DNA of 49,464 bases from a bacterium (GCA_028821235.1 JAPPGV010000026.1:1-49464); one strand, 5' to 3'. Counted from the stretch's first letter, positions 5,774 to 40,429 are shown. Translations and numbers: made by a program. The notes: a model not told the origin generated them from the letters alone.

Positions 5774-8422
<2,649 letters not shown>

Positions 8423-8566
8423 GATTCACCGTTTCTCGTCTATCGGGCAGGAGGACACGTCAGGTCGACCCGCCGGGTCATGCTATCCGCCGCAGGAGCG
8501 TGTGAGAACCCCTACCCCGGGCCGTAGCGGCTACCGGCGCTCACGCACGGAATGGGTGTGGTCCGG

Positions 8567-9118: not shown

Positions 9119-9731
9119 GATCCGATGTTAATCGGATACCGCCTCCACCCGATCGGGAGCGGGTGAGGGTGATGGCCGCGGTGACGGCGCCCCGGCAGGC
9201 TGCGGCTGCCGAGCTCAGGGTGGCGCCGGTGGTCAGCACATCGTCCACCAGCACCGCTCCCCCCGGCGGCCGCGACACCGACCGGAACCGCAGGCCACCG
9301 CGGCGCCTGGACCGTATCTGGCTGCGGTGGAGCATGGGGGCGCGCAGCACGTCGGCCACGGGCAGGCCGGCTGTCCGGGCTAGAGCCACGGCCAGTGCCC
9401 TACCCGGGTCGGTACCGAACCTGGCCCGGCGAGGCAGCGACCTGGGTACCGGTACCAGGGCGGTCGCGCCGGTGGGAAGGAGATCGACCAGGAGGGGAGC
9501 CAGCCCCGAGGCGACCCGGTCGGCTCCCCGGTACTTCATGGCGTGGACGGCCTTGCGGATCGGACCCCCGTGTTCCAGCAGCGAGCGCACCAGCACGCCC
9601 GACGGGAGCCTGACCTCGCCGCCGGGCCGCAGGGACGCCGCGCAGGCGGGGCATACCGACGATCTCCTCTCCGGATCCCTCCGCGAAGTTCCTGCCGACG
9701 GGTTCCACCACCCGCACACCACACACACCAT
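9075..9731 (-). CDS. ComF-family phosphoribosyltransferase-like protein
   Basis: ComF proteins carry a zinc ribbon and a phosphoribosyltransferase domain and act in DNA uptake or nucleotide salvage. From the ATG at 9731 the product has 218 residues. Cysteine pairs CVVC (about 3-6) and CPAC form the ribbon, HAMKYRG is the usual ComF sequence, and AVLVDDVLTTGATL is the PRPP-binding loop. A longer frame upstream lacks ComF features, so I start at MVCVVCGWW. The 3' end overlaps hpf by 44 bases and carries the hpf promoter. Confidence 0.8.
   Translation of the reverse strand: MVCVVCGWWNPSAGTSRRDPERRSSVCPACAASLRPGGEVRLPSGVLVRSLLEHGGPIRKAVHAMKYRGADRVASGLAPLLVDLLPTGATALVPVPRSLPRRARFGTDPGRALAVALARTAGLPVADVLRAPMLHRSQIRSRRRGGLRFRSVSRPPGGAVLVDDVLTTGATLSSAAAACRGAVTAAITLTRSRSGGGGIRLTSDHGSPDTRARNPVHG
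9120..9137 (-). promoter_or_regulatory. palindromic operator over the hpf -10 box
   Basis: ATCCGAT GTTA ATCGGAT is a perfect 7-4-7 inverted repeat. Its centre holds minus-strand TAACAT (9130-9125), followed by six bases and the hpf start codon. A dimeric regulator bound here would block the promoter. No -35 consensus was seen. Confidence 0.45.
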
Positions 9732-9790
9732 GCCCCCTGTTGTATCCGGACCCTGTGACAGTCTGCCCCCGCGCCGACCGACCATGGATG

Positions 9791-11155: not shown

Positions 11156-11167
11156 GAGATATCCCGA

Positions 11168-11223
11168 CTACTGGTCTGTCTGCGTGCCAGCCTGCCGTGC
11201 TCTGGCGGCCATACCACACCGCC
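11168..11223. repeat. short copy of an inverted-repeat element
   Basis: This 56-bp stretch between manB and the next gene shares its end and internal blocks with the longer element at 29491-29658. Read on the minus strand, it has a 16-base block (11223-11208) identical to 29512-29527. It then has CGCCAGAGCAC (11207-11197), identical to 29621-29631, and the terminal arm CTACTGGTCTGTCTG (11168-11182) differs from the other copy at one base. About 90 bases of the long copy are missing here. Confidence 0.6.
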
Positions 11224-11296
11224 TTCCCGGCCGGCGTGGAGTGAGGCATTTGCGGCGGTCGCCGAGTCCGATCCTACACTCGCCCCGGTAACGAAC

Positions 11297-11995
11297 ATGA
11301 CCCCACCGCAGATCACCATCATCATCCCGGTCCACAACGAGGCCGGCTTCATGGGACCCGCCCTGGCCCGTATCCGGGAGCAGGTGGAGGCGGTGACGCC
11401 CCGGTACCGGATCATCCTGGTCGAGAACGGATCGACCGACGCCACCCATGCCGAGGCCCTGTCCGAGGCGTCCTCCGATCCCCGCCTGGACGTGATCCGG
11501 ATCGACGGCGCCGACTACGGGCTTGCCATCCGCACCGGTATGGAGGCGGCCGGGAACCTGGGATGGCTGGTGGTGTTCGACATCGACTACCACTCTCGAG
11601 AATTCCTGCAAAGGGTCGCTGAGCTCGACGGATCGGCCGATGTGGTGATCGCCTCGAAGCGGGACCCCGGTTCCCTGGACCGGCGACCGTGGATACGACG
11701 CCTGGCCACCCGAGTGTTCAACCTGGCACTCCGGGCCGTGGTCGGATCCGGGCTGAGCGACACCCACGGCATCAAGGCGCTCCGGGCTCCCGTAGCCCAG
11801 GCGCTCCTCCCACGAGTGCGCCTCACCAAGGACCTGTTCGACACCGAACTGGTGCTTCGGGCCGAGCGGGCCGGGCACCGCATCATCGAGGTTCCTATCA
11901 CCGTGGAGGAGTTGCGGGAAGCCCGCTCCTCGCTGCTCCGGCGGGTCCCGCGCACCCTCCGGGGACTGATCGCGCTGCGCCGGAGCCTCGGGTAA
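11297..11995 (+). CDS. family 2 glycosyltransferase, polyprenol-phosphate sugar synthase type
   Basis: Likely transfers a sugar from a nucleotide donor to polyprenyl phosphate or a glycan. The 232-residue protein opens with the GT-A nucleotide-binding strand ITIIIPVHNEAG, followed by VENGSTD and the DxD-like motif FDIDYH. It lacks the C-terminal membrane segments found in some relatives. TACACT at 11275-11280 sits about 17 bases before the ATG and may be its -10 box, divergent from manB. Donor and acceptor cannot be read from the sequence. Confidence 0.78.
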   Translation: MTPPQITIIIPVHNEAGFMGPALARIREQVEAVTPRYRIILVENGSTDATHAEALSEASSDPRLDVIRIDGADYGLAIRTGMEAAGNLGWLVVFDIDYHSREFLQRVAELDGSADVVIASKRDPGSLDRRPWIRRLATRVFNLALRAVVGSGLSDTHGIKALRAPVAQALLPRVRLTKDLFDTELVLRAERAGHRIIEVPITVEELREARSSLLRRVPRTLRGLIALRRSLG

Positions 11996-11999
11996 CGGC

Positions 12000-14540
12000 T
12001 CAGCCGTATCCCGAACGGCCGGTGCCCCGCAGGGCGGGGTCGCGGAGCCCCTCGGGCGGTAGCCGGGCGGGAGCCATCCGCCGGCGTACGAGAGCGACCA
12101 ACCAGATGACCAGGACGATCGCTCCGGCGAGGGTCAACGCAAATCCCGCCATCTCCACCCAGGTGTTCTCGAAACGCAGTTCTACCTCGCTATCGGTCGG
12201 GACCACCACCATGAAGGCCGGGGTGGCCCGCCACGGACCCTCGGCGCCGTAGGCCGTCCAGTTCGGGAAGTAGGACACCTTGATCAGGTGGGGAAGGCCC
12301 ACGCCGGTGGTTGTGAACGCCACGCGGTGATCCTCCAGCACCACGTCGGACACCTCGACGTCCGAGTCGGTCGTGACCGGGACGGTGGCGCCGTCGAGGT
12401 CGGGAGTGGTCCGCTCCCAGTGCGAGGGACCGCCCGCCACGATCCATTGGTCCACGAGGCTGATGTCCTCGTACCAGTCGAGGGCCACGTCGACGAAGTG
12501 CGGCTCGGTGTCCTGGGTGAAGGTGGTCACCAGCGAGGTGAGGAGCCCGGAGCCTGACTCCTCGAAGACCCAGGGCTGGTTGACCGCCACCTCCACGAGA
12601 GAGCTCTCCGGAAGGGAATAGATCCGGAACGGGGGCGAATCCTGAACGAAGGTGAAGTCCGGATGCCGGTCGGCCCTGTCCTTGGCCGTGTCGGTGTAGG
12701 CAACGTAGTAGGACACGTTGAAGAGGCGCATATGCACGGCGCCCCGGTCGATGTCGCGGCTGTGGTAGGCCAGGCCGGGAATCGGGTTGGAGGGGGAACT
12801 GCTCAACTCGGACGCGTTGAGGAAGTGGAAGGGGGTGGTGACCGAGGACTCGAAGTAGAGGCCCTCCATCGAGGGGTGGGTGCCCTCCGTCCAGTAGGGG
12901 AACAGCATCGGCGCCATGGGGGTGCCGTACTTGTTGAGCTCGCTGTTGGCTTCCCATTGCACCCGCCCGGGCGGCAGGGCGCCCACTGCCGACATCACCC
13001 CCTCGTACTCGGGCCAGGTCGCCTTACCCTCGTAACCGAGGTAGTTCCAGCGTGCCCAGGCGCCCACGTAGTTCTCCTCGGTGACCACCCCCACGAAGAT
13101 GACTCCCGTGATCGCCACGGACGCCAGGACGGGAAGGACCGTCCGGGTGGCGGGCCGCGGGCGGCGTCCCACCAGCCATAGCAGGAGGACCCCGGCCGCC
13201 GCCACCAGCATGTCGGGGCCCGAGATCCGCTCCACGAGCGGCTCCAGCCGCAACGTACCGACCCAGGCGGGCACGCCCTCGATGTTCCAGGCGGGTTCCC
13301 CGATACGAGGCCCGAACACCAGCACCAGGACGGCGCCCACGATGCCGCTCTGCACCCACCAGGTGGGCAGGCGCTCCGGGAGCCTGCGGATGGCCGCCAC
13401 GACCAGCAGGCCGACCGCGATACCGGCGAAGAGGTGCAGGCCGTAGAACCAGTGGGGAAGGGCACGGCCGTTCCAGAGCTTTGCTCCCTGGCTGAGAAGG
13501 AAGAAGGCGGGGATCGGCACCAGCGTCAAGGCAGCCGGCGCGAGGGCCCGCCCGGTCCGCCGCAAGGCCATCACCAGCCCGATCACGCCCAGGATGGCCA
13601 CCGGCCACAGTTCCACCGGCACAAGCTCGTCGAACCCCGCCAGGGGCTGCCAGTTCATCTCGGTCGTGTACCGGAGCCGGATGATCAGGGGCAACGCCCA
13701 GAATGCAGCCAGCATGAAGCCCACCGCCCAGGTTCCCGGAACGATCCACCAGGACAGCCCGGAGCGAGCCCCCTCCGGGCGAGCGCCGGTCCGGAGACGC
13801 CCCCACCACCCCGAGCGCGCCACCTGCACGAACAGCGTCGCCAGCAGCACGATCAGCGATGCGAACACCACGCCCATGGTCGGGATCACATGGCAGAGCG
13901 CGGTCCCGGCCAGCGCGGCGGCCGCGCCCACGAAGTACCTGCGATCGTCGTGCACCGCCCTGAGCAGGCAGCCCAGGTAGACCAGGGAGAAGGCGAACGA
14001 CCATGAATACGAGAACTCCCCGGCCAGGCTGGATGCGATGGTGCCGCCGAAGATGTTGGGGGTGGGGGTCTCCATGAAGGCGTAGACGCCTCCCGCCGCC
14101 GCGGCGACCGCGGCGACCGGACGGGCGAAACCCATTGACCGGACGAGGAAGTACGTGGCCGGAGCGAGCGCGACCAGCCCCACGACCGTCACCGTCTTGA
14201 ACGCCACCCCGTAGGGGAGTGCCAGGTCGAGGGCCACGATCACCAGCGAGGGAAGGGGGAAGTAGAAGTAGAAGATCGGGAACCCGGCGAACCAGTGGTT
14301 CGACCAGCCCATGATCCGACCGGACGGGAGCAGGACGTCCCGCAGGTAGGCGGGGCCGAGTACGTGAGCGCCCATGTCGCCGCCCGTCGGGGTGTTGGCG
14401 ACCAGCAGCAGGTGGGGGGCCACCGCCACCAGGGTCGCCAGCGAGACCATGGCCACCAAGATGGCCGAGGTCCGGGTGGACCATCCCTGCGAACCCACCT
14501 CGTCCTCTATCGGCCCGGCCGGCTCGGCGGTCCCCGTCAT
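12000..14540 (-). CDS. large multi-pass membrane protein (PTPS-related / GT-C-like)
   Basis: 846 residues from the ATG at 14540, which overlaps the stop of the upstream thioredoxin-like gene (ATGA). An N-terminal membrane anchor is followed by a loop with GGDMGAHV and WFAGFPIFYFYFPLP, a pattern I associate with the PTPS-related membrane domain (PF10131) and GT-C-like glycosyltransferases, where an acidic residue in the first loop is catalytic. About 11 more membrane helices follow, then a lumenal region of roughly 330 residues and a final membrane helix with a basic tail (VRRRMAPAR). Its neighbours are envelope glycosylation genes, so a polyprenol-linked sugar transferase is plausible but not shown. 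Confidence 0.65.
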   Translation of the reverse strand: MTGTAEPAGPIEDEVGSQGWSTRTSAILVAMVSLATLVAVAPHLLLVANTPTGGDMGAHVLGPAYLRDVLLPSGRIMGWSNHWFAGFPIFYFYFPLPSLVIVALDLALPYGVAFKTVTVVGLVALAPATYFLVRSMGFARPVAAVAAAAGGVYAFMETPTPNIFGGTIASSLAGEFSYSWSFAFSLVYLGCLLRAVHDDRRYFVGAAAALAGTALCHVIPTMGVVFASLIVLLATLFVQVARSGWWGRLRTGARPEGARSGLSWWIVPGTWAVGFMLAAFWALPLIIRLRYTTEMNWQPLAGFDELVPVELWPVAILGVIGLVMALRRTGRALAPAALTLVPIPAFFLLSQGAKLWNGRALPHWFYGLHLFAGIAVGLLVVAAIRRLPERLPTWWVQSGIVGAVLVLVFGPRIGEPAWNIEGVPAWVGTLRLEPLVERISGPDMLVAAAGVLLLWLVGRRPRPATRTVLPVLASVAITGVIFVGVVTEENYVGAWARWNYLGYEGKATWPEYEGVMSAVGALPPGRVQWEANSELNKYGTPMAPMLFPYWTEGTHPSMEGLYFESSVTTPFHFLNASELSSSPSNPIPGLAYHSRDIDRGAVHMRLFNVSYYVAYTDTAKDRADRHPDFTFVQDSPPFRIYSLPESSLVEVAVNQPWVFEESGSGLLTSLVTTFTQDTEPHFVDVALDWYEDISLVDQWIVAGGPSHWERTTPDLDGATVPVTTDSDVEVSDVVLEDHRVAFTTTGVGLPHLIKVSYFPNWTAYGAEGPWRATPAFMVVVPTDSEVELRFENTWVEMAGFALTLAGAIVLVIWLVALVRRRMAPARLPPEGLRDPALRGTGRSGYG

Positions 14541-16217: not shown

Positions 16218-19000
16218 GCCGGTCCGTCCCCGGCCTCACGCCTGGACCGGACCAGTGACAGGCCCGCCAGCAGGATCACCATGACGCCTGCCGCCCGCGC
16301 CTGGAACCGGTACGAACCCATCCCTCCGAAGGTGGCGACTCCCGCCTCCGCCGGCACGCGATTGGCCCAGCCGTCCTGTTGCCAGGCGCCCGGGCCCCAT
16401 CGGTGGTCGGCGTTCTCCGCGATCCGGACCGAGCCTCCGGCCTGCCGGCCCTCGTAGTCGGGCGCCACCCACGACCACGCCACCCCGCGATCGGTCATTG
16501 CCCGGTAGGCGGGGACGTCGTTCTCCCATACGCCTCCGGACTCCCCCACGAAGAGGCCGGCAAGAGGTCTCATATCCAACTGCGCGCTCATAGCGTCCGC
16601 AATCGGGCTCGGACCGGTAGCCGCCACCCAGCGGATACCGAACCGCGCCAGCAACTCTCCCGGGCGAAGCTCCTGCCCGGCAATCAACCCGACCAGCGTC
16701 TCCTCGAGGGCCGCATCTCCCAGGCGCGCCTCCGGCAGCCAGGCCTGCGGGTAGTCCAGGACACCGCCGATAAGGCGGTAGGGCGTGCCATCGGGCAGCA
16801 CCCGATGCTGCCCCGGAAGGGTTTCCGGCGGCCCGGTGAGCAGCACCCGGTCGGGGCCATGGGCCTCGGCCCGGCTGGACGCGAACGCGAAGGCGCCGAA
16901 CCGGTCGTCAGGCAGCCCCATGCGGCCGGCCGGCGCCGCGATCAGGGAGGTCACACCGACCACTATGGCCGCCACCATCGCCGCGTACGCGGCCGCCGTC
17001 CGGGGCAGCGAGACGTCGATACCGAGCGAGGCGGGCGCGTCGAGAGCGCCGGCCACGACCAGTGCGGCTCCCGCAGCAGTGGCGATCAGGCCGGCGGCCG
17101 TGGTTTCCTGGCCCGCGCCCGCAGAACCGGCCCGCGCCACGAGAAAACCGACCGATCCGATCACCGTACCCGTCACGGCGACCGAGAGCGGCCGGCCCCG
17201 GGCAACCACCATGGCCGCCGTGCCCGCCACCAGCAGCGGAACGGCCGCCCACCATGACGGATCGGGGTGGAACGGCGCGCCGCTCCCCAGCACCCCGGCC
17301 ACGCCGCGTCCGCTCAACCACGGCATCAACACGGGCAGGGCGAGCACCGATCCGGCCGCGCCTACGACCAGGGGGCGGCCGCGCCGCGTCACTGGCGCCC
17401 AGACCAGTCCGAACAATATGGGAATCACGATCGAGAGCGGGACGAAGACAGCCGAGGCAGCGGTGGCGAGGCCCACCCTGGCGAGGCGCCCCGTCCAGCC
17501 CCGGACGGTCTCCGGATCACGCCCCACCACTCCCGCCAATGACCAGGGGAGCCCGCCGAGCGCCAGGAGGCCGGGCCAGTAGCCTTCCGCGGCCAGCCAC
17601 AGCACCGGGAACCCGGCTACGAAGACCGCCCCGGCCACCAGGCAGGCTCCGCGACTGAGGCCGAGCCTCCGGATCAGGGTCACCGTGCCGGCCACACCCG
17701 CGGCGACCGCGCCCACCGTGAGAATGCCGGCGGCCCCGCCCCGACCACCCAGAAGCAGCTGGATCGCGGCGGTGGCGCCGACCGAGGGATGCATGGGCTC
17801 GGGACTGCCCAGCCCGCCCGGATGCCATCCACCGGCATAGGCGCGCAGGGTGTCCCAGGCCGACTCGGCCAGCGGCAGCAGGTATCCGGTCGCCGGCAGC
17901 CCCTCGGCAATGATGGAGCGGGTGAGCACGAGGACCAGCGCCACCCCCAGCACGGTCGTTATCACATCCGGTCTCTGCCAGAAGGCGGGCGGGGCGCGAT
18001 CGTCCGGCTCCTCCTGCTCAGCGCCGGCGCCGAGCAGGGCGCCCAACTCGGCCGCGATCTCGCGCAGTTCCAGCGAGCCGCGGACCTGGAACCGGAACAG
18101 CTCGGCATCGGACTCCATGGAAGTCGCGGGGGCGCGCCGCCGGGCCTGCAGGGTCGAGGGTAGGTAGAGAAGGTTCCAGGCCCAGGTGCGGGCCCAGTCC
18201 ACCGGTCCGGTGAGAGAGCCTTTCCCGAGCCGGTAGAGCCAGGTAGCCAGACCCACCAGGAACAGGGCGGGTAGAACCCACGTAAGGGTCACCAGGGAGT
18301 AGGTCTTGAGCATGATCCGGAGCCTTCCGGCCTGCTCCCGCCAAGTAGTGGGCCGCTTGGCGCCGCCGGCCCGGCTGAAGACCTCGGAACCCGGGCTCAC
18401 GACCACCCGGCCGCCCACCACCCGTGCCCTCTGGCAGATGTCCAGGCCGAAGGAGAGGTAGGGCAGGGAGTGATCCAACCCGCCCAGACCCTCGGCCAGG
18501 TCCCTTCTGACGAGCAGCGAGGCCGGCTCCAGGAACGCCACGTCCCGGATGACGTCGAACTGCTCCTGGTCGATCTCCCCGGTCTCGAGGCCCGTGTACG
18601 GGAACCCGAACACATCGGTAGGCCCGCCCACGGACAGCAGCCGGTCGGGATGGTCCGTATCGAGGACCTTCGACCCCACCACGGACGCCTCCAGGCTCTC
18701 GGCGGCGTCGATCAGCGCTACCAGCGCGTCGGGCCGGGCCGTGGTACGGGAGTCGAGCATCCACAGGTAGTCGACCGGACCGTCAACTGCGTCCAGGGCC
18801 TCCGACAGCCGTCGGGCCGTCTTGGGCCCGTTCGCATCCGGCGTGACACCCGGCCGCCGCTCGGCGATGACCACCACGTCCTCGACCTCGTAGACTTGGG
18901 AGTCGATGCTTGCCAGCACTTCGGCGACGTCGTCTCCCCGGCGGGCCACCACCAGCGCCAGGACGCGCGGCTTCGGTGACGGTGGAGAGGACTGTGTCAT
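16214..19000 (-). CDS. family 2 glycosyltransferase with C-terminal membrane domain
   Basis: 928 residues. Residues about 10-230 are a GT-A domain (VLALVVARRGDDVAEVLASIDSQ, DYLWMLDSRTTARPDAL, AFLEPASLLVRRDLAEGLGGLD, and SFGLDICQRARVVGG late in the fold). A first membrane segment follows at about 240, and after a cytoplasmic linker there is a hydrophobic multi-helix region. The C-terminal quarter is soluble and followed by a last helix. It is divergent from fbiA and coupled to the DUF5719-like gene. Such proteins build cell-surface glycans; the substrate is unknown. Confidence 0.72.
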   Translation of the reverse strand: MTQSSPPSPKPRVLALVVARRGDDVAEVLASIDSQVYEVEDVVVIAERRPGVTPDANGPKTARRLSEALDAVDGPVDYLWMLDSRTTARPDALVALIDAAESLEASVVGSKVLDTDHPDRLLSVGGPTDVFGFPYTGLETGEIDQEQFDVIRDVAFLEPASLLVRRDLAEGLGGLDHSLPYLSFGLDICQRARVVGGRVVVSPGSEVFSRAGGAKRPTTWREQAGRLRIMLKTYSLVTLTWVLPALFLVGLATWLYRLGKGSLTGPVDWARTWAWNLLYLPSTLQARRRAPATSMESDAELFRFQVRGSLELREIAAELGALLGAGAEQEEPDDRAPPAFWQRPDVITTVLGVALVLVLTRSIIAEGLPATGYLLPLAESAWDTLRAYAGGWHPGGLGSPEPMHPSVGATAAIQLLLGGRGGAAGILTVGAVAAGVAGTVTLIRRLGLSRGACLVAGAVFVAGFPVLWLAAEGYWPGLLALGGLPWSLAGVVGRDPETVRGWTGRLARVGLATAASAVFVPLSIVIPILFGLVWAPVTRRGRPLVVGAAGSVLALPVLMPWLSGRGVAGVLGSGAPFHPDPSWWAAVPLLVAGTAAMVVARGRPLSVAVTGTVIGSVGFLVARAGSAGAGQETTAAGLIATAAGAALVVAGALDAPASLGIDVSLPRTAAAYAAMVAAIVVGVTSLIAAPAGRMGLPDDRFGAFAFASSRAEAHGPDRVLLTGPPETLPGQHRVLPDGTPYRLIGGVLDYPQAWLPEARLGDAALEETLVGLIAGQELRPGELLARFGIRWVAATGPSPIADAMSAQLDMRPLAGLFVGESGGVWENDVPAYRAMTDRGVAWSWVAPDYEGRQAGGSVRIAENADHRWGPGAWQQDGWANRVPAEAGVATFGGMGSYRFQARAAGVMVILLAGLSLVRSRREAGDGPA

Positions 19001-19063
19001 GGATACCCCATTGTGTTACGGAATGAACTACAAGACAACAACCGTCACCCCGGCGCCCGGTCC

Positions 19064-19999
19064 GTGACGCGCCGCGTCGTCCTCCTGTCCGGCGGGGTCG
19101 GAGGCGCCCGCCTGGCTCGTGGGTTCGAGCACCTGGAGGGTGTCGAGTCCACGGTGGTGGTGAACGTGGGCGACGACGACACCTTCTACGGGTGGTCGGT
19201 GTCCCCCGACCTGGACACGGTGCTCTACACACTGGCGGGACAGGAAGGGACCGCCGGCTGGGGTCGAGCCGGTGACACCATGGTGCTGATGGACCATCTG
19301 GCAAGCTTCGGGGTCGACACCCGTTTCCGGATCGGAGACGCCGACGCCGCCCTCAACCTCTACCGGACCCTGCGGCTACGGGACGGCGATCCCCTCCACG
19401 CCATCACCGCCGATCTGGCGGGAATGATGGGGGTGGAGTCGACGATCATTCCCGCCACTGACGATCGTCTCCGGACCGAGGTGTTGACCGGCCCCGGCCG
19501 TTGGACGGCGTTCCAGGAGTACTTCGTGCTGCGTGGCCACCGCGACGATGTCGCCGAGCTGAGGTTCGTGGGCGAGGCTACGGCCCGGCCCGCCCCGGGG
19601 GTCGTGGATGCCATCGCGGACGCCGACGCGGTGGTCATCGCACCTTCCAACCCGCCCCTGTCCGTCTGGCCCATCCTGGCCGTCCGCGAGATCGCGGCCG
19701 CGGTCCGGGGAGCCCGCCGGGTGATGGCGGTCAGCCCGCTGTTCGGAGGCCGGGCGCTCAAGGGACCGGCCGACCGGGTGTTGACTTCGCTGGGACTCCC
19801 GCCGGGCAACGCCGGGGTGGCAGCGGCCTATCCGGGCCTGATACATGACTTCTTCATCGACAGCGCCGACCGGGCCGACGTGCCCGCCCTGACCCGCTCG
19901 GGGTTGTCGGTCCACGCCGGACCCACCCGCATCGCGGAGGTGGAACAGGCGGTCGGGTTGGCCAGACGGATGATCGGCTTGCTGGGACTCGATACATGA
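19064..19999 (+). CDS. fbiA: F420 biosynthesis 2-phospho-L-lactate-type transferase
   Basis: Joins the phospho-three-carbon unit to the deazaflavin Fo, making (dehydro)F420-0. The 311-residue CofD/FbiA protein begins VVLLSGGVGGARLARG, then NVGDDDTFYGWSVSPDLDTVLYTL, and contains APSNPPLSVWPIL, all typical of the family. I chose the GTG at 19064, just before the first beta strand; an upstream start would add an unconserved tail. The stop overlaps the fbiB start (ATGA). F420 made here could serve the luciferase-like oxidoreductase at 40463-41386. Confidence 0.93.
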   Translation: MTRRVVLLSGGVGGARLARGFEHLEGVESTVVVNVGDDDTFYGWSVSPDLDTVLYTLAGQEGTAGWGRAGDTMVLMDHLASFGVDTRFRIGDADAALNLYRTLRLRDGDPLHAITADLAGMMGVESTIIPATDDRLRTEVLTGPGRWTAFQEYFVLRGHRDDVAELRFVGEATARPAPGVVDAIADADAVVIAPSNPPLSVWPILAVREIAAAVRGARRVMAVSPLFGGRALKGPADRVLTSLGLPPGNAGVAAAYPGLIHDFFIDSADRADVPALTRSGLSVHAGPTRIAEVEQAVGLARRMIGLLGLDT

Positions 20000-20697
20000 C
20001 CATCTCGATAATCCCCGTCAAGGGCGTTCCCGAGGCCGAGCCCGGTGATGACGTGGCCGAACTGCTGATCGGAGGGCTGGCGGAGTCCCGGCTGGAGCCG
20101 GCGGACGGGGACGTGCTGGTCGTGACCCACAAGCTGGTATCGAAGGCCGAGGGTCGTATCGAGGACATCGGCGACGACCCGGAGGCCCGTCTCCGGCTGA
20201 TCGAGCGGGAGGCGTCGGCCGTGCTCCGCCGCCGTGACGAGCTGGTGATCACGGAGACGCATCACGGGTTCGTGTGCGCCAACGCCGGAGTCGACAAGTC
20301 CAACGTCCGCGCCGGCTCCGCGGTGCTCCTCCCCATCGCTCCTGACCGGTCAGCGCGGCGGATCCGTACCCGTCTCCGGCAGGTCTTCGGGGTGACGATC
20401 GGCGTGATCATCACCGACACGTTCGGAAGGGCGTGGCGCCACGGCCTGACCGATGTGGCGATCGGCGTGGCCGGTATCCCGGCCGTGGTCGACTACCGGG
20501 GAACATTGGACACCCACGGGAACACCCTCGAAGTGACGGAGGTGGCGCTGGCGGACGAGCTGGCCGCGGCGGCCGACCTGGTGATGGGCAAGGCGAAGGG
20601 CATTCCCGCCGCCCTGATTCGTGGGGCGGATTACCCGCCGGGTGAGGGCTCGAGCGCCGACCTGGTACGGAGCCCCGGCCAAGACATGTTCCGCTAG
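19996..20697 (+). CDS. fbiB: coenzyme F420:L-glutamate ligase
   Basis: Adds glutamate residues to F420-0. The 233-residue protein corresponds to the CofE domain alone, with HKLVSKAEG, ETHHGFVCANAGVDKSN, DTFGRAWRHGLTDVAIG and PAVVDYRGTLDTHGN clearly recognisable. Mycobacterial FbiB carries an extra C-terminal nitroreductase-like domain that reduces dehydro-F420; it is absent here, so that step must be done by another protein or not be needed. The gene is translationally coupled to fbiA and is followed by a short convergent gap with a heptamer repeat. Confidence 0.92.
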   Translation: MTISIIPVKGVPEAEPGDDVAELLIGGLAESRLEPADGDVLVVTHKLVSKAEGRIEDIGDDPEARLRLIEREASAVLRRRDELVITETHHGFVCANAGVDKSNVRAGSAVLLPIAPDRSARRIRTRLRQVFGVTIGVIITDTFGRAWRHGLTDVAIGVAGIPAVVDYRGTLDTHGNTLEVTEVALADELAAAADLVMGKAKGIPAALIRGADYPPGEGSSADLVRSPGQDMFR

Positions 20698-24496: not shown

Positions 24497-24685
24497 TCAT
24501 CCACAGCACGCATCCATGGATGGCCCGGACCACGGATGGCCCGACCCTGCCACCTCCCCGATGACCTCGCCCTTGCGTTCCTTGCAGTCCGGACACACCC
24601 AGACTGCCGGCACCCTGGCGCCTTCCACCACCAGCGTGCGGTACTCGTGACCGCAGTCAGGGCAGGCGATCAGCAGAACCGGCAC
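24497..24685 (-). CDS. small zinc-ribbon protein, 62 residues
   Basis: Two CPDC knuckles (CPDCGHEYRT near residue 8 and CPDCKERKG near residue 31) form a likely zinc ribbon; the C-terminus ends DACCG. The start is GTG at 24685, preceded by GGAGGGA, and lies inside the last 29 bases of the upstream lyase gene, so it is the last member of that operon. Its function is unknown. Because it accompanies the putative coenzyme M genes it could deliver sulfur or metal, or bind the enzymes, but the sequence alone does not show this. Confidence 0.65.
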   Translation of the reverse strand: MPVLLIACPDCGHEYRTLVVEGARVPAVWVCPDCKERKGEVIGEVAGSGHPWSGPSMDACCG

Positions 24686-26213
24686 GGCTCCCTCCCCCTC
24701 CGCCTGTTCGGCTCTGCGCCAGGGCAGTGGCCTCGGTGATCAGGGAATCCCTGGCCGCGTCCTGGGCCGCTCGCGATGCTGTCCCCCATTCCCGGGAATG
24801 CCGTACCCGCAGTGACACCGACGCGCAGTGCTCGAGAACCCGGCGGGGCGCCGATCCGCCGATCGAGTCCCGGGAGGCGACCATGGCCGCCACGTCGTCC
24901 ATTTCCGGCTCCGACTTCGCCGGAACGGACCCGGTCGGCTCAAACCCGGCAGCGCGGGCCGCTTCGGCCAGACGGGCGGCCGAGACCTGCTCCTCCCCCG
25001 CCCCGGCAGCTTGCGCCACCGCCCGGGCAACGACTCGATAGGCGCTCCTGTAGTCGAGACCCCCTTCCAGGACCAGACGGTCTGCCAGATCGGTCGCCGT
25101 AGTGAAGTTCGTTGCCGCGTCCTCGGCCAGCCTCGCGACGTTCACCTCCAGGGAGCCGACCACCTCGGTTGCCAGGCGCACCAGCCGGGTGGCGAGTTCC
25201 ACCGCTCCCACCACCTCCCCGTACAGGTGGAGCCAGTTGTCGGTTCTGGCGGATGGAGTCCGCTGGGTGACCATCAGTCCGGTGACCCTGCCGATGAGGG
25301 TTCCGCAGCCGCCGCGGATCACCGCGAGAGCGTAGGGGTTGCGCTTCTGCGGCAAGAGCACTGACGCCCGCGACGACGATCCCCCCAAGGTCACGTAGCC
25401 GAACTGCGGGCTGGCAAAGATCTCGAGGTCCTCGGCCAGGCGATCGACCGCCAGTGCCGCCTGCATGGCTGCCACACCACAGTCGATCATCGGATCACCC
25501 GACCACATGCCGTCGCGGATGTGGGCGGTGGGCTGGTCGAAGCCCTGCCGCGCCGCCATGCGGGAGCGGTCCACCGGAATCGGCGTTCCGCCGACACCGC
25601 CGGACCCTGCGGGTGATTGGTTGATCAGCCGGTAGCAATGGCGGACCCGGTCGAGGTTCCGGATGCCCTGCTCGGCGAAGCCGGCCAGATAGTGGCCGAA
25701 TGTCGACGGCTGGGCGGGCTGCAGATAGGTGGTGTCGTTCCACAGCGCATCCGCCAACTCTTCGGACCGCCTGACCAGCACCTCGGTGCACGCGGCAACC
25801 GCTTCATGGAGCGCCAGGAGCCGGTCCCGGAGCGCCAGGCGGATGGCGATGCGTCCGGCTTCCCGCCTGGTACGGCCGGTCGGCAGCCATCCGGCCCGGG
25901 ATCCCAGGCGGCGCTCGAGCTCCCGTTCCCGGCTGTTGTAGGCGTCCCCGTAGACCGGATCGTAAGGGAAGGAAGCAGGATCGGTGTCCAGGAAGTCGAG
26001 CAGCTCCCGGCAGAGCGCCGCCGCCGCCGCCTTTGGCGCCACGCCGGCCGCGACCAGCTCGATAACGTGGCTGAGGTCGGCCAGGCACAAGCCCTCGTGA
26101 AGGATGGCGGCGTCCGCCACCTCGAGGCGGTAACCGGCCGCCACCAGCTCCGGGGATGGGCCTGATCCGAGCGGCCCATCCGCTCCCAGATAGCCCTCGG
26201 GCGGCTGGATCAT
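24657..26213 (-). CDS. aspartase/fumarase-superfamily lyase (ArgH-like), probable coenzyme M synthesis
   Basis: 518 residues from the ATG that overlaps the PLP-enzyme stop; an upstream extension of the frame only mirrors that enzyme. Superfamily regions are visible: DTTYLQPAQPSTFGHYL (the TxxQxAQP type), and the flexible loop ending in LLPQKRNP. In this loop the usual GSSxMP is ASVLLP, so Ser284 stays but the second Ser, normally the catalytic one, is Val285. In the bacterial CoM operon of Xanthobacter two such lyases (XcbC1, XcbD1) perform phosphate elimination and a decarboxylation-type step. The present gene best matches the ArgH-annotated one (XcbD1) by context. Housekeeping argininosuccinate lyase is unlikely given the lost residue and neighbours. 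Confidence 0.68.
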   Translation of the reverse strand: MIQPPEGYLGADGPLGSGPSPELVAAGYRLEVADAAILHEGLCLADLSHVIELVAAGVAPKAAAAALCRELLDFLDTDPASFPYDPVYGDAYNSRERELERRLGSRAGWLPTGRTRREAGRIAIRLALRDRLLALHEAVAACTEVLVRRSEELADALWNDTTYLQPAQPSTFGHYLAGFAEQGIRNLDRVRHCYRLINQSPAGSGGVGGTPIPVDRSRMAARQGFDQPTAHIRDGMWSGDPMIDCGVAAMQAALAVDRLAEDLEIFASPQFGYVTLGGSSSRASVLLPQKRNPYALAVIRGGCGTLIGRVTGLMVTQRTPSARTDNWLHLYGEVVGAVELATRLVRLATEVVGSLEVNVARLAEDAATNFTTATDLADRLVLEGGLDYRSAYRVVARAVAQAAGAGEEQVSAARLAEAARAAGFEPTGSVPAKSEPEMDDVAAMVASRDSIGGSAPRRVLEHCASVSLRVRHSREWGTASRAAQDAARDSLITEATALAQSRTGGGGGSRAGSADRLP

Positions 26214-27157
26214 GCCGCCGAACTCCCGTGGAAGAGGTTCAGGGTTCCGCCGGTGACCAGGAACAGCACCGGCCCCCGGACCTCGCCGGCCTGCCGGATG
26301 AGGTCGGCCAGCGCGCAGGAGCCGTACTCGGGATCGAGGAAGACGCCTTCCGTGCTGGCCATCAGCCTGGCGGCGGCGTCGACCTCCAGAGGGTCGGGGT
26401 CCAAGTGGTCGGTGACCTGCCACCGGACCGGGTACCGGTGAGCCACTTCCAGGATGTCGAGGGAGGCCTCGGATATGTCCTCGATACGGCGCTGGCACTC
26501 CTCGATGGGGCGATGGACCGCCGCGCCCACCACCCGCGGGCCGCCGGCCCGCCGCCGGTAGCCGGCCACCAGGCCGGCCATCGTGCCGCACGATCCCGCC
26601 GCCAGCCACATTGCCTCGAACCGGACTCCTGCCCCTTGCGCCTGGTCATCGATCTCGTCGACCGCGGCGACGTACCCCAGTGCCCCGACCGGACCGGCGC
26701 CGCCCCGGCCCACCACGTATGGACGGCGACCCTCTTCCCGCAGGCACGCTTCCACCCGGTCGAGGAGCGGATCGACGGAGGCTCGCACCGGGCTACCGGT
26801 GAAGCGGATCCGTAGGTTGTCCAAGCGGTCGAGCAGGTCGACCCCGCTGGTGCCTGCCGGTGGCCGGTCTCCGAACAGCACCAGTTCGCAATCGAGGCCT
26901 CTGGCGGCCGTGGCGGCGGCCGCGGCCAGGACCCAGTTGGAACGCGGTCCTCCGCCGGTCACGAACACGTCGGCGCCGGCCTCGCGGCAGGCGCCCATAT
27001 GGAACTCGATCGCCCGGGCCTTGTTGCCACCCAGGCCGACACCGGTCAGGTCGTCCCGCTTCAGCCAGATCGACGAGCCGAGTTCCTCGGAGAGCCGGGG
27101 CGCGAACGTGAGCGGCGTCGGCAGGTTCGCCAGGGCTATCCGAGCGGGGGCGGTCAA
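26210..27157 (-). CDS. xcbE1: D-cysteine desulfhydrase-like PLP enzyme, probable XcbE1-type
   Basis: Fold-type II PLP enzyme, 315 residues. It has the N-terminal TPLTFAPRLSEELGSSIWLKRDD, the PLP-lysine motif GLGGNKARA (Lys46), and a phosphate-binding AAGSCGTMAGLV. Related enzymes are D-cysteine desulfhydrase and ACC deaminase. In the known bacterial coenzyme M pathway a member of this family performs the thiolation step, so I propose that role. The start is TTG overlapping the stop of the upstream lyase (TTGA), and its stop overlaps the next lyase start. This close packing with two fumarase-superfamily genes is the main argument for CoM synthesis over amino acid degradation. Confidence 0.72.
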   Translation of the reverse strand: MTAPARIALANLPTPLTFAPRLSEELGSSIWLKRDDLTGVGLGGNKARAIEFHMGACREAGADVFVTGGGPRSNWVLAAAAATAARGLDCELVLFGDRPPAGTSGVDLLDRLDNLRIRFTGSPVRASVDPLLDRVEACLREEGRRPYVVGRGGAGPVGALGYVAAVDEIDDQAQGAGVRFEAMWLAAGSCGTMAGLVAGYRRRAGGPRVVGAAVHRPIEECQRRIEDISEASLDILEVAHRYPVRWQVTDHLDPDPLEVDAAARLMASTEGVFLDPEYGSCALADLIRQAGEVRGPVLFLVTGGTLNLFHGSSAA

Positions 27158-28500
27158 CCGGCCGCCCTTATCACCCGGTCCACGAACCGGGGCCCCGCAC
27201 CCATTACCCGGCCGAGGTCGGCCTGCTCCTCGATGTCCGACCGGCTCAGGTGGGCGGGAATCCGAGGATCGCGCATGAGCGCTTCGGTAAACGGGAGCCC
27301 CTCCTCGACGCCCCGCATGGCCGCCTCGTACACGATGTCGTGGGCGGTGTGCTTACCGACCCGGTCGGCCAGCAACCGCATGACCGGCTCGGCGAACACG
27401 GATCCCCCGCGGGCATCGATGTTGGCCCGCATCCGCTCTGCGTCGGCCTCGAGGCCCTCCACCAGCATCACCGCGTAGCGGGTGGCCGAGAGGGTCAGGG
27501 CTGCCGCCTCGGGGAGGGCGATCCACTCGGCCTTCCACGCTCGACCGTCCCGCTCGTGGAGCTGGATCATCGACTCGGTCATGACGGAGGCACCCGCGCG
27601 CACCAGCCTGGCCAGCGTGTCCAGGTGCTCCGACAACTCCGGGTTGCGCTTCTGGGGCATGGTGATGCTCCCCACGGTGCCCTCGATGAAGGGCTCCCGG
27701 ACCTCTCCTATCTCCAACCGCTGCAGCTCCATGATCTCGTTGCCGATCTTGGCGATGGTGGTAGCGACCATCGCCAGCAGGTGCACGAACTCGGCGGGTC
27801 CGTCCCTACTGGTGATCCAGGGGATCGAGGGAACGCCCAGATCCATCCGGCGGGCGAAGGCGTCCAGCAGATCGAGCGCCTGCTCGCCCCAGAACTCCAG
27901 CGTGCCGAGAGCGCCGCCCAACTGGACCACCTCCCATCGACTCCGCCCGTCCGCGAGCCGCTGCCGGTGCCTGCCCAGCTCCGCCGCCCAGACGGCCGTC
28001 TTGAAACCGAACGGGATGGGCAGGCCCGGCTGGGCGTGCGTGCGACCCATCATCGGGGTGGTGCGATGATCACGGGCCAGCACCAAGGCAGCGGCCTCCA
28101 GGCGGGCCAGGTCCCTCTCCAGCAGATCGCCGACGGATCGCATCACCGTGGCGGTCCAGGTGTCGGTCAGGTCCTGGACCGTTGCGCCGTAGTAGACCCA
28201 TTCCCGGGCGGGCTCCGGGAGGGTGGCTCGCAACACCCGGATCAGGCCCAGGGTGGAGTGGCCGGTCGCCCGGGTCTCCGTGGCGATGCGGTCCAGGTCG
28301 ATCTCGGCCCCGGTGGCATGGTCCCTGATGTGCCGGGCGGCCCCTGCCGGCACCAGGCCGACCTCGGCCTGGGCCTCGGCGAGGGTGGCGAGAATGTCAA
28401 GCCAGGCCCGGAAGCGGGACTCCTCCCCCAGGATGGACCGGGCCTCTTCGGTACTCCACAGGTGCCCGTAGACGACGGAGTCGCCCAGGTGGATGCTCAT
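27154..28500 (-). CDS. aspartase/fumarase-superfamily lyase (PurB/CMLE-like), probable coenzyme M synthesis
   Basis: 448 residues. The three superfamily regions are present: WVYYGATVQDLTDTW, MMGRTHAQPGLPIPFGFK, and the signature GSITMPQKRNPELSEHL. The normal GSSxMP is GSITMP: Ser278 stays but the position of the catalytic second serine is Ile279. The protein resembles adenylosuccinate lyase or carboxymuconate cycloisomerase, yet sits in an operon with a PLP enzyme and a second lyase. The Xanthobacter XcbC1 protein, also of this superfamily, eliminates phosphate from phosphosulfolactate to give sulfoacrylate; this gene is the better candidate for that step. ATG 28500 overlaps the preceding stop codon. 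Confidence 0.68.
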   Translation of the reverse strand: MSIHLGDSVVYGHLWSTEEARSILGEESRFRAWLDILATLAEAQAEVGLVPAGAARHIRDHATGAEIDLDRIATETRATGHSTLGLIRVLRATLPEPAREWVYYGATVQDLTDTWTATVMRSVGDLLERDLARLEAAALVLARDHRTTPMMGRTHAQPGLPIPFGFKTAVWAAELGRHRQRLADGRSRWEVVQLGGALGTLEFWGEQALDLLDAFARRMDLGVPSIPWITSRDGPAEFVHLLAMVATTIAKIGNEIMELQRLEIGEVREPFIEGTVGSITMPQKRNPELSEHLDTLARLVRAGASVMTESMIQLHERDGRAWKAEWIALPEAAALTLSATRYAVMLVEGLEADAERMRANIDARGGSVFAEPVMRLLADRVGKHTAHDIVYEAAMRGVEEGLPFTEALMRDPRIPAHLSRSDIEEQADLGRVMGAGPRFVDRVIRAAG

Positions 28501-30097: not shown

Positions 30098-31204
30098 CTA
30101 GCCCAGTTCGCTGCGAACGATCTCCGCTCCCGAGACCATCGCGTGGAGCTTGTCCTGGGCGATGTAGCGCTGCAGGAGGATGAGCCCGCAGTCCGTGGTC
30201 ACGCCCAACTGGTTGGCCGGCACGTACTCGAGCAGCCGCCGGATCCGGCCGGCTACCTGCTCGGCCGTCTCGGTGATCGTCGACTTGACGTCGATCACAC
30301 CCGCCCAGAACTGGATGTTCTCGGGAACCGGATTGTCCCGGATCACCTCGAGCCCGGACAGGTCGTCCGAGCGCCGCCCGCAGTTCTCGAGGTTGAGGAC
30401 ATCGATGTTCGCCTCGTAGGACTTCGGGACCACCGAAGCGGTGGCAGCCGGCTCATCACCCTGGCGGATGGTCAGATCGAAGATCTCTCCGGCGCCGGCC
30501 GTGTCGTCCGGGTAGTAGGCCGGGGTGCCGCCCCAGTTGCCCCAGCAGATGTGGACGATGATCTTGGCGTTCTGGACGCCCTCCACGGCCCGGTCGAAGG
30601 CCTCGATGGCCCACGGTTCGTAGAAATACGGCCAGGTGAACTCGTCGAGCTGGATGAAGTCGATCCCCATGGCGTCGACCTCGAGGATGTCCTCGTTGAC
30701 CGCCGCGGCGATGTCCATGGCCCGCTCCGCGGGATCCTCGTAATGGAGGTCGTTGGTGGCCTGGGCAAGGACCTGGATACCGGTGTACTGGACCTTGGTG
30801 GCCTTGTTGGTGGCCTGCTTCAGGGCCCGGGCCTGCTCGACCATGATGGCGCCCCGCCGCTTGACCTCCTGGGTGAGGGTGCCGGCATGGAGGCGGCTGT
30901 AGATCGGGAACCCGAGGAAGCCACCCTTCAGGTCGTATCCGAGCCGCTTGTAGTAGTAGTAGAGGGCCTGATCGGCGTAGTTGTCGCCGTGGAGCCGCCC
31001 ATCGGTGATGATGTCGAGACCGGCGTTCTCCTGGTCCCTGGCCAGGGCGCCCACCGCATCCTCCAGCGCCTCCCGGATGTAGGCATCCGGCGGCTCCTGG
31101 TCCCCGGTCCAGTCCCGCACGCAGTTGGCGTCCCACCACCTCGGATTGGGGTAGTTCCCGACCATCGAGGTCGGGATCATGACCTCTTGACCCTTGATCT
31201 GCAT
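30098..31204 (-). CDS. xecA: epoxyalkane:coenzyme M transferase (MetE-fold)
   Basis: Opens an epoxide with the thiolate of coenzyme M to give a hydroxyalkyl-CoM. The 368-residue protein is a single cobalamin-independent methionine synthase-type barrel, close in length to Xanthobacter EaCoMT (about 377). Zinc ligands are visible: His and Cys in HICWGNWGG, Glu in NLENCGR and Cys in TTDCGL. It lacks the N-terminal half of a true MetE. Other clues are GNYPNPRWW and the neighbouring xecD and xecE. The ATG has GGAGGGA upstream. A MetE-like methyltransferase for some other thiol is the main alternative, but the full pathway context argues for EaCoMT. Confidence 0.83.
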   Translation of the reverse strand: MQIKGQEVMIPTSMVGNYPNPRWWDANCVRDWTGDQEPPDAYIREALEDAVGALARDQENAGLDIITDGRLHGDNYADQALYYYYKRLGYDLKGGFLGFPIYSRLHAGTLTQEVKRRGAIMVEQARALKQATNKATKVQYTGIQVLAQATNDLHYEDPAERAMDIAAAVNEDILEVDAMGIDFIQLDEFTWPYFYEPWAIEAFDRAVEGVQNAKIIVHICWGNWGGTPAYYPDDTAGAGEIFDLTIRQGDEPAATASVVPKSYEANIDVLNLENCGRRSDDLSGLEVIRDNPVPENIQFWAGVIDVKSTITETAEQVAGRIRRLLEYVPANQLGVTTDCGLILLQRYIAQDKLHAMVSGAEIVRSELG

Positions 31205-31386: not shown

Positions 31387-31456
31387 ACCCGCGATGTCAC
31401 GACCTGGGGTTTGGTTGTGGACTATCGGGCTAACGCGGACCTTCTCGATGCTCTTC
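31387..31456 (+). repeat. copy A of a 70-bp dispersed repeat
   Basis: Read on the plus strand, this stretch matches the minus strand of 41411-41480 throughout, including ATCGGGCTAACGCGGAC against ATCGGGCCAACCGGAC. It ends at the xecD stop codon. Copies B (33221-33290) and C (41411-41480) are in the opposite orientation. This copy is the most diverged. Confidence 0.6.
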
Positions 31457-32196
31457 TAGCGGAGCGACCAGCCTCCGTCCACGACCAGGCCGTGGCCGGT
31501 CATGTAGGAGAGGCGGCCGGACGCCAGGAGGGTGATCGCCTCGGCGATCTCCTCGGGCTGGGCTACCCGGCCGACGGGGATGCTGGTCTCGATGGCCGAC
31601 CGGAGCTCGGGCTGGTCGAGCCGCCACTTGGTCATCGGAGTCTCCGCCATGCCGGGACACACCGCGTTGGACCGGATGCCGTCCCCGGCGTAGTCCAGGG
31701 CAATCGAGCGGGCCAGCAGCAGCGCCGCCGCCTTCGAGACCGAGTACGCGGAGCGGGACGGGAACGGATCCATCCCGGCCACCGAAGCCACCGTGATTAT
31801 GTGACCGGACCGGCGGGGAACCATCGAGGAAAGGGCGGCGCGCGAGCACAGGTAGGCGCCCCGCACGTTGACCCCCATGACCCGGTCCCACTCCTCGACC
31901 GGGGTCTCGTGGAGGCGGGTGGCCGCCAAGGATCCGGTGATCCCGGCGTTGTTGACCAACACGTCGACCGGGCCAAGCGTCTCCTCGACGGCGGCGAAGG
32001 CCGCCGAGACCTCGCCTGCCACGGCTACGTCCACTCCCAGCCCCAGTCCATCGCCCGCGGCTTCGGAGGCGCCGGAAGGATCGAGGTCGAAGACACCCAG
32101 CCGGAACCCCTCGCTCCGGAGGCGCTCGCATGTTGCCAGCCCTATGCCCGACCCACCTCCCGTCACCACGGCCACACCCGGCGCCCGGTCCGCCAT
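31456..32196 (-). CDS. xecD: R-2-hydroxypropyl-CoM dehydrogenase
   Basis: NAD-dependent short-chain dehydrogenase oxidising the R-hydroxyalkyl-CoM to the keto form. The 246-residue protein has TGGGSGIG, NNAGITGS, Tyr151 and Lys155. From memory of Xanthobacter R-HPCDH, sulfonate-binding Arg152 and Arg196 lie in FPGRSAY and TQWRLDQPE. Here the same positions, offset by four, are Arg148 in FPSRSAY and Arg192 in TKWRLDQPE, and AVCPGMAETPMTKWRLDQPE is nearly the same as in that enzyme. The ATG at 32196 follows GGAGG with five bases between. It diverges from xecE across a 250-base gap, with a possible TATCCT -10 box at 32223-32228. Confidence 0.85.
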   Translation of the reverse strand: MADRAPGVAVVTGGGSGIGLATCERLRSEGFRLGVFDLDPSGASEAAGDGLGLGVDVAVAGEVSAAFAAVEETLGPVDVLVNNAGITGSLAATRLHETPVEEWDRVMGVNVRGAYLCSRAALSSMVPRRSGHIITVASVAGMDPFPSRSAYSVSKAAALLLARSIALDYAGDGIRSNAVCPGMAETPMTKWRLDQPELRSAIETSIPVGRVAQPEEIAEAITLLASGRLSYMTGHGLVVDGGWSLR

Positions 32197-32436
32197 CCAT
32201 ACCTCCAGAGAGTCGAGACCCAAGGATACGTCTGACCGCTCCGGGAATCCTGGAGGAGCGCTGCTCGGCCCTGAACGCGCCGCCGGCCGAACCCGACCTT
32301 CCAGGGTGACCGCGACCCTTCGATCGCCATGGCCCCCAGTGACGACCGACCTGACACACGATTGGATCGAGCTGTCCGAGGAGTCGTTACTCGAAGCCGG
32401 CCAATGCCCTGCTACTGGCCACTGACCACTGCGGCG

Positions 32437-32442
32437 TATCAT
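32437..32442 (+). promoter_or_regulatory. -10 box of xecE copy 1
   Basis: TATCAT is followed by seven bases and the ATG at 32450, so the message is probably leaderless. The paralogue at 42458 has TATGAT at the same distance. The ACTGGCCACTGACC heptamer pattern lies just upstream (32413-32428). Confidence 0.5.
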
Positions 32443-32449
32443 GTCCCGC

Positions 32450-33217
32450 ATGAGACTCGAAGGACGGACTGCTCTCATCACGGGAGCCGGCTCGGGTATC
32501 GGCCGGGCAACCGCCGTATTGTTCGCCGCCGAGGGCGCCGGCGTGGCGATACTCGACCGCGACGGCCAGGCCGCCGAGTCCGCCGCCTCGGATATCTCGG
32601 CCACAGGCGCCGAGGCACATCCGGTGGTGGCCGACGTGTCGTCACCGGAGGAGATCGCCGGCGCCGTGGACCGCGCCGCCCGGCTCCTCGGTCGCCTTGA
32701 CATCCTCTACAACAATGCCGGCGTCGGGTCCAGCGGATCGGTGGTTGACACCACCGAGGAGGACTGGGACCGCTGCTTCGCGGTGAACGTCAAGGGCACC
32801 TACCTGACCTCACGGGCCGCCATACCCCACCTGGAATCCGCAGGCGGCGGATCCATCATCAACCAGGCCTCGGTAGCCGCTCTGGTGGGGATCCAGGGAC
32901 TCGCTGCCTACTGTGCCGCCAAGGGAGCGGTGGTGTCCCTGACCCGAGCCATGGCCATCGACCTCGCTCCCGTTGGTATCCGGGTGAACGCGCTCTGCCC
33001 GGGCACCGTCTACACGCCGCTCATGGAGCCGCTCATGCGCGAGCGCGGCGGCGGAGATATCGAGCGTGGCCTGGAGATAACCGCCGCCAAGTATCTGATC
33101 GGACGTCTCGGAACGCCCATGGAGATCGCCCGGGCCGCGCTGTTCCTCGCATCGGACGATTCCAGCTTCGTCACCGGTACCGCCTTCACGGTCGACGGCG
33201 GTATGACGGCTCAGTAG
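32450..33217 (+). CDS. xecE: S-2-hydroxypropyl-CoM dehydrogenase-like SDR, copy 1
   Basis: 255 residues, the length of Xanthobacter S-HPCDH. It has TGAGSGIG, NNAGV, Ser141, Tyr154, Lys158 and a C-terminal stretch AAKYLIGRLGTPMEIARAALFL...DGGMTAQ very like that enzyme ([22 protein letters not shown]...DGGMTAI as I recall it). Of the two sulfonate-binding residues, Lys214 is kept but Arg211 is Thr211. The inner ATG at 32450 is preferred because an upstream ATG at 32441 would lie inside the -10 box. A second copy at 42458 is about 75 percent identical by eye. Together with xecD it would handle both enantiomers. Confidence 0.75.
   Translation: MRLEGRTALITGAGSGIGRATAVLFAAEGAGVAILDRDGQAAESAASDISATGAEAHPVVADVSSPEEIAGAVDRAARLLGRLDILYNNAGVGSSGSVVDTTEEDWDRCFAVNVKGTYLTSRAAIPHLESAGGGSIINQASVAALVGIQGLAAYCAAKGAVVSLTRAMAIDLAPVGIRVNALCPGTVYTPLMEPLMRERGGGDIERGLEITAAKYLIGRLGTPMEIARAALFLASDDSSFVTGTAFTVDGGMTAQ

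Positions 33218-37872: not shown

Positions 37873-40429
<2,557 letters not shown>

Follow-up and report, generated by a model that had tools for sequence, protein, structure and literature searches.

What does it mean when two lyases encoded in one gene cluster have both lost the same serine from the signature loop of their superfamily? The question is raised by a bacterial contig (GCA_028821235.1 JAPPGV010000026.1:1-49464), which we analysed along its whole length of 49,464 nucleotides (hereafter the window, on which all coordinates are counted unless another locus is named). Its minus strand carries two genes for aspartase/fumarase-superfamily lyases, xcbD (27154..28500, 448 amino acids) and xcbC (24657..26213, 518 amino acids, with an ATG at 26213 that overlaps the end of xcbE), in whose serine-serine (SS) loops the second serine is replaced. 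The original prediction took this serine for the catalytic base. We find that both enzymes belong to the known bacterial pathway of coenzyme M (CoM) synthesis, and that the residue they lost is, by comparison with characterised relatives, not the base.

The two lyases are XcbD and XcbC

In profile searches the 448-residue lyase matched NCBIfam family NF052536 (CoM_syn_XcbD) with 665 bits, over the curated cut-off of 600. For the 518-residue lyase the best family was NF052535 (CoM_syn_XcbC), at 399 bits and under the curated cut-off of 575; the XcbC proteins of Nocardioides JS614, Mycolicibacterium NBB4 and Methylocystis (392-423 bits) also all fall under this cut-off, which only the Xanthobacter XcbC1 type passes (742 bits), and this places the XcbC of the window with the non-Xanthobacter types. 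Its gene is 96% identical in a sister metagenome-assembled genome (MAG). Lyase_1 (PF00206) matched both proteins, with 116 and 100 bits, and Foldseek agreed with an aspartase/fumarase-superfamily fold. Compared with curated ArgH, XcbC reached 227 bits, under the cut-off of 279.5, its SS pair is incomplete, and the His162 and Glu296 of argininosuccinate lyase (ASL) are replaced by Tyr163 and Ala297; XcbD reached 256 bits with curated PurB, under the cut-off of 326. Genes for XcbA, XcbD and XcbE are clustered with xcbC, and XcbB is encoded in the genome. The two genes thus encode XcbD and XcbC of bacterial CoM synthesis, a known system, and probably serve epoxide carboxylation. That these are Xcb-type lyases and not decayed housekeeping enzymes, as first proposed, is borne out by the family profiles, by the genome's own FumC, ArgH and PurB, and by gene context.

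The loop of XcbD reads GSITMPQKRNP (residues 277-287; 27640..27672, minus strand), with Ser278 encoded at 27667-27669 and Ile279 at 27664-27666. That of XcbC reads ASVLLPQKRNP (residues 283-293; 25335..25367, minus strand), with Ser284 at 25362-25364 and Val285 at 25359-25361, so that translation agrees with the double loss originally described. Neither loop matches the full GSSxxPxKxN signature: the first Ser, the Pro, the Lys and the Asn are kept and the second Ser is gone, and because domain and fold put both proteins in the superfamily, we regard both loops as variants of it. They align gap-free with argininosuccinate lyase, EDDS lyase and 3c8t (phmmer), which rules out an alignment-gap artefact. 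The SS pair is intact in the source genome's FumC (GSSIMPGKVNP), ArgH (GSSAMPHKKNP) and PurB (GSSAMPHKTN) and, with these three counted, in 31 of 31 other superfamily members, the rest being drawn from 12 genomes of the phylum; the change is therefore not a matter of chance.

Loss of the second serine across both families

Loops of both families were collected with search patterns that leave out the second-serine position ([LM]PQKRNPY and LAED[LF][EM]I[FW]). Among 85 readable XcbC loops this position holds Val in 71, Ile in 11, Ala in two and Lys in one; among 79 XcbD loops it holds Ile in 77 and Phe in two. It is never Ser in either family, and the first Ser is present in all. The characterised Xanthobacter enzymes go the way the original prediction expected, since XcbC1 (RASKILPQKRNP, Lys at the second position) and XcbD1 (GSITMPHKRNP, Ile) both lack the second serine. 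The closest non-Xcb lyases keep it: GSSTMPHKRNP in L022 (491 bits to the XcbD model), GSSTMPHKHNP in L023, TSSIMPQKKNP in L124, and SS in L148-L157.

In quick maximum-likelihood trees, in which Xanthobacter XcbC1 and XcbD1 form long branches, the XcbC clade including XcbC1 stands apart from ArgH-like lyases (Shimodaira-Hasegawa-like approximate likelihood ratio test, SH-aLRT, 100), and the XcbD clade including XcbD1 stands apart from PcaB/PurB-like lyases (SH-aLRT 98). Each tree has a single change between Ser and non-Ser, at the base of the XcbC and of the XcbD clade. Since XcbC branches from ArgH-like lyases and XcbD from PcaB/PurB-like ones, this amounts to two independent losses. As loops and trees indicate, loss of the second serine is a family trait of XcbC and XcbD that arose twice independently.

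The predicted base serine is retained

In the loop of S283A duck delta-2 crystallin (PDB 1k7w), TGASLMPQKK, chain position 283 is Ala (GAS at 282-284), which makes the catalytic serine mutated there the first of the pair. Ser302 serves as general base in the nitrosuccinate lyase CreD, where the alpha-carboxylate is held by Lys308 and Asn310 and the beta-carboxylate by the second serine, Ser303, together with Thr122 and Ser123 (PMC13411527). In the aspartase AspB the base is Ser318, acting with Met321, Lys324 and Asn326, and the enediolate forms at the beta-carboxylate (PMC11744663). The first serine is the base in all three, contradicting the initial assignment of this role to the second. Base and loop lysine are six residues apart in each case, a spacing by which the base would be Ser284 of XcbC and Ser278 of XcbD, and both serines are invariant in every family member examined. 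By this alignment XcbC and XcbD retain the predicted base serine of the superfamily; what they have lost is a different residue, and their chemistry need not be base-less.

The unusual chemistry that had been proposed for the pair survives in part. Phosphate elimination by XcbC1 has published support (PMC8727900), but neither loss of the base nor decarboxylation as a consequence of serine loss is supported: Tad1, a solved decarboxylase of the superfamily, has a serine at the second position, so that serine loss alone is no argument for decarboxylation, and we rejected the loss as a requirement for that reaction.

Residue changes around the second serine

Other active-site positions were compared in alignments of 35 XcbD with 21 relatives, and of 41 XcbC. 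The second-serine position of XcbD is Ile in 33 of 35 and Phe in two, and Ser in all 21 relatives; in the C1 motif, Val108 (35/35) stands where the relatives have Ser or Thr (21/21), and Tyr103 (33/35) replaces a conserved His. These same three changes (Ile279, Val108 and Tyr103) set XcbD apart from the trans-aconitate decarboxylase Tad1, from CreD and from the 3-carboxymuconate cycloisomerase PcaB, with which it shares the base serine, Lys284, Asn286, Thr107 and Arg317, the last corresponding to CreD Arg341 and Tad1 Arg360 by its spacing from the loop lysine. His155 and Glu291 are likewise unchanged. XcbD is thus predicted to have lost both hydroxyls of the beta-carboxylate pocket, that of the second Ser and that of the C1 Ser/Thr.

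XcbC shares its fold, the base serine, Thr162, Lys290 and Asn292 with argininosuccinate lyase, delta-crystallin and EDDS lyase, whereas the second serine, His162, Glu296, Lys/Arg325 and Asn116 are all replaced. Duck His162 corresponds to Tyr163 (41/41), duck Lys325 (Lys/Arg in ASL-type lyases) to Asp325 (41/41), duck Glu296 to Ala, Ser, Val or Thr297 (Ala in the window) and duck Asn116 to Arg117; Arg95 and Arg282 are new and invariant or nearly so. In goose delta-crystallin a His160-Glu294-Lys323 network supports catalysis (PMC2779060).

AlphaFold2 models had a predicted local distance difference test (pLDDT) score of 91 for XcbD and 86 for XcbC. The best Foldseek match of XcbD was Tad1 (9h3i, template modelling (TM) scores 0.91/0.94), with 3c8t, PcaB and CreD also found; the nearest solved folds of XcbC were EDDS lyase and argininosuccinate lyase, and duck delta-1 crystallin matched with TM scores of 0.79/0.91.

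A proposed sulfonate pocket and its alternatives

The second serine helps fumarate-type lyases to hold the beta-carboxylate of their substrates, and at this place phosphosulfolactate and sulfoacrylate have a sulfonate. From this we infer a parallel remodelling of the pocket of the second serine with conserved base chemistry. We favour, as probable though well short of assured, the explanation that in XcbD and XcbC of the bacterial CoM pathway the base serine and the Lys/Asn pair were kept and the second serine was lost independently, as the pocket was remodelled for sulfonate. The residue changes are read directly from the alignments, and the pocket and the role of each residue in the steps that follow are put forward conditionally.

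In XcbC1, phosphate is eliminated from phosphosulfolactate to give sulfoacrylate (PMC8727900). Ser284 of XcbC would take the C3 proton beside the sulfonate while phosphate departs from C2, with sulfoacrylate as the product. The His-Glu-Lys/Arg relay of ASL is replaced by Tyr163, Ala297 and Asp325, a phosphate leaving group presumably needing no His acid, and Arg95, Arg117 and Arg282 would suit a very anionic substrate. Lys290/Asn292 in XcbC and Lys284/Asn286 in XcbD may hold the alpha-carboxylate. XcbD1 is presumed to add a cosubstrate to sulfoacrylate (PMC8727900), and the bacterial CoM pathway has been completed in Xanthobacter (PMC12068725). The NCBIfam name for XcbD implies a cysteine adduct. 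If that name is correct, cysteine would add to C2 of sulfoacrylate, with His155 and Glu291 activating the cosubstrate, perhaps as a thiol, and Ser278 giving the proton back to C3. Precedents for such C-S chemistry are the superfamily member FlcB, which adds cysteine to fumarate (cited in PMC13411527), and a reversible S-(2-succino) lyase (PMC9706529).

Several points weigh against this explanation. The location of the sulfonate in the active site is deduced from sequence, and the SS-loop of the XcbC model (279-291), like both of its ends, has a pLDDT below 50. The second position of XcbC is chemically mixed (V, I and A, with Lys in Xanthobacter) and may simply be relaxed, and losing hydroxyl donors would be no obvious route to binding an extra sulfonate oxygen. 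The abstract of the 2022 Xcb paper reportedly lists a decarboxylation step, in disagreement with NCBIfam on the product of XcbD.

Other explanations could be considered. As originally supposed, the lost serine might have been the base, with both enzymes relying on another base and on different chemistry. The residue clearly matters, the CreD second-serine mutant S303A being inactive (PMC13411527), it is gone from both families, and phosphate elimination has been reported for XcbC1 (PMC8727900). We nevertheless judge this unlikely, since the documented base in duck delta-crystallin, CreD and AspB is the first serine, which all XcbC and XcbD keep, and since a catalytic site would hardly tolerate V, I, A and K as position 285 of XcbC does. 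Far less probable still is that these are decayed or duplicated housekeeping lyases under relaxed constraint: XcbC does score under its curated cut-off, but the genome has its own FumC, ArgH and PurB, each with both loop serines, XcbC occurs in 9 of 10 searched genomes of the genus (the source genome among them), all open reading frames (ORFs) are intact, and the active-site substitutions are fixed across phyla. These results led us to discard decay.

A more serious contender, which we still consider rather doubtful, is that the serine was lost through altered dynamics of the SS-loop, or because an aci-carboxylate intermediate was lost as phosphate leaves well, and not for sulfonate recognition as such. 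A further role in loop dynamics is possible for Ser303 of CreD (PMC13411527), the model leaves the loop of XcbC disordered, and the whole His-Glu-Lys/Arg relay is gone from XcbC, as expected if protonation of the leaving group is dispensable. However, XcbD keeps His155 and Glu291 and yet lost the serine plus its pocket partner (Val108), so the leaving-group argument fails to cover both enzymes. Under the sulfonate-pocket explanation, a further and more tentative proposal, to which we give somewhat less than even chances, is that loss of the second serine (with Ser/Thr to Val in C1 of XcbD) may be a convergent signature of lyases with sulfonate in place of the beta-carboxylate, one that arose twice in a single pathway and could be used for finding others.

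Gene neighbourhood and comparison with known clusters

Between xcbD and xcbC, at a conserved place, lies an xcbE-like gene with a TTG start (26210..27157, minus strand) for a pyridoxal phosphate enzyme of the D-cysteine desulfhydrase family; NF052537 is its best family at 223 bits, under the cut-off of 450 (Nocardioides XcbE 315, Xanthobacter 523). Upstream of xcbD, an xcbA-family gene (DUF7714, PF24830; 28497..29435, minus) scored 368 bits to NF052538 (cut-off 150). Apart from these, xcbB, for a phosphosulfolactate synthase of the ComA family, is found at 39566..40429 on the plus strand (PF02679, 267 bits, cut-off 25). The epoxide genes comprise an epoxyalkane:CoM transferase (30098..31204, minus; 76% identity to Xaut_5047 over 351 aa), a homologue of 2-ketopropyl-CoM oxidoreductase/carboxylase (2-KPCC; 37887..39569, plus; 67% identity to Xaut_5048 over 521 aa), and two short-chain dehydrogenases/reductases (PF13561), candidate hydroxyalkyl-CoM dehydrogenases by context, at 31456..32199 (minus, start inferred) and 32441..33217 (plus). 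Like the Nocardioides JS614 and Mycolicibacterium NBB4 alkene clusters, the window also encodes two coenzyme A (CoA)-transferase subunits (PF01144; 33339..35059, plus), with matching neighbours in L002 and L003. By eye from translation, two ORFs at 19013-20697 resemble the F420 biosynthesis genes cofD and cofE. Two di-iron monooxygenase subunits are encoded elsewhere in the source genome, outside the window. The nearest relatives of the source organism are MAGs named Acidimicrobiia; from isolate names we take these to be of sponge origin, and the source bacterium is presumably sponge-associated.

Xanthobacter autotrophicus Py2, with XcbC1 (Xaut_5053) and XcbD1 (Xaut_5054), shares with the window these families, XcbA, XcbB, XcbE and the epoxide neighbours, as well as loops in which the second serine is absent (Lys, Ile) and the first present. 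The XcbC of the window is 38% identical and has Val, not Lys, at the second position; gene order is A-D-E-C, with XcbB about 10 kb off on the other strand, compared with A-B-C-D-E in Xanthobacter. Among the XcbC proteins seen, Xanthobacter XcbC1 (L001, 6466-7983) alone has a charged residue at this position, and this confinement to one protein led us to reject Lys as a replacement base. The CoM clusters of Nocardioides JS614 and Mycolicibacterium chubuense NBB4 have the order A-D-E-C, 53-63% identity, CoA-transferase neighbours and loops (ASVLMP/ASVLLP and GSITMP) like those of the window; XcbB is directly upstream of XcbA in both, and beside the 2-KPCC homologue in the window. On pMYCCH.01 of NBB4 the XcbD copy (L003, 9001-10357) appears frameshifted after about codon 120, the tblastn match falling in two pieces with the annotated coding sequence starting at 9368; an intact copy is on pMYCCH.02.

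Related loci

XcbC directly follows XcbD in 13 loci (L075, L076, L077, L083, L084, L086, L087, L101, L108, L109, L114, L115 and L118), within which no XcbE match was seen; a pyridine-nucleotide-disulphide oxidoreductase gene lies just downstream of XcbC in L077 and within about 5 kb in L084. In high-GC loci, many antisense ORFs from greedy ORF calling were noise. XcbC-like lyases also occur in genomes of family f29 (L138, L140-L147; L162, 7966-9462; L163, 7711-9210; L165, 8166-9665); their scores against the XcbC model are about 394-421 bits, and the second-serine position is Ala. They have no XcbB, XcbD or XcbE nearby, and a heavy-metal P-type ATPase and an aldehyde dehydrogenase adjoin them in the examined loci; a ComA-family gene is found elsewhere in eight of the nine f29 genomes with such a lyase, and another use of sulfoacrylate is possible. 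Genome G097 (L139, 1500-3737; L160, about 6393-13884) has an XcbC-like gene (TSVIMPQKKNPYSLA) followed directly by XcbB/ComA, an ATP-grasp protein and a glycosyltransferase, with no XcbD or XcbE, an arrangement that resembles another sulfonate pathway. A close relative of the source organism (G405, L124) encodes two EDDS-lyase-like lyases about 10 kb apart (6151-7707 and 17554-18951), with TSSIMPQKKNP loops and 269-286 bits to the XcbC model.

Implications

These results place a full set of genes for CoM synthesis and epoxide carboxylation in an uncultured lineage of Acidimicrobiia. With the catalytic residue correctly assigned, what seemed the loss of a base becomes a testable switch of specificity, in which the base would be kept and the carboxylate pocket altered. 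One change was fixed independently in two distantly related lyases of one pathway, and its effect can be tested by simple reciprocal mutants. If the marker holds true, it would point to lyases that may act on sulfonates in pathways other than CoM synthesis, and XcbC-like genes that carry Ala or Val and have no accompanying XcbD would be among the candidates.

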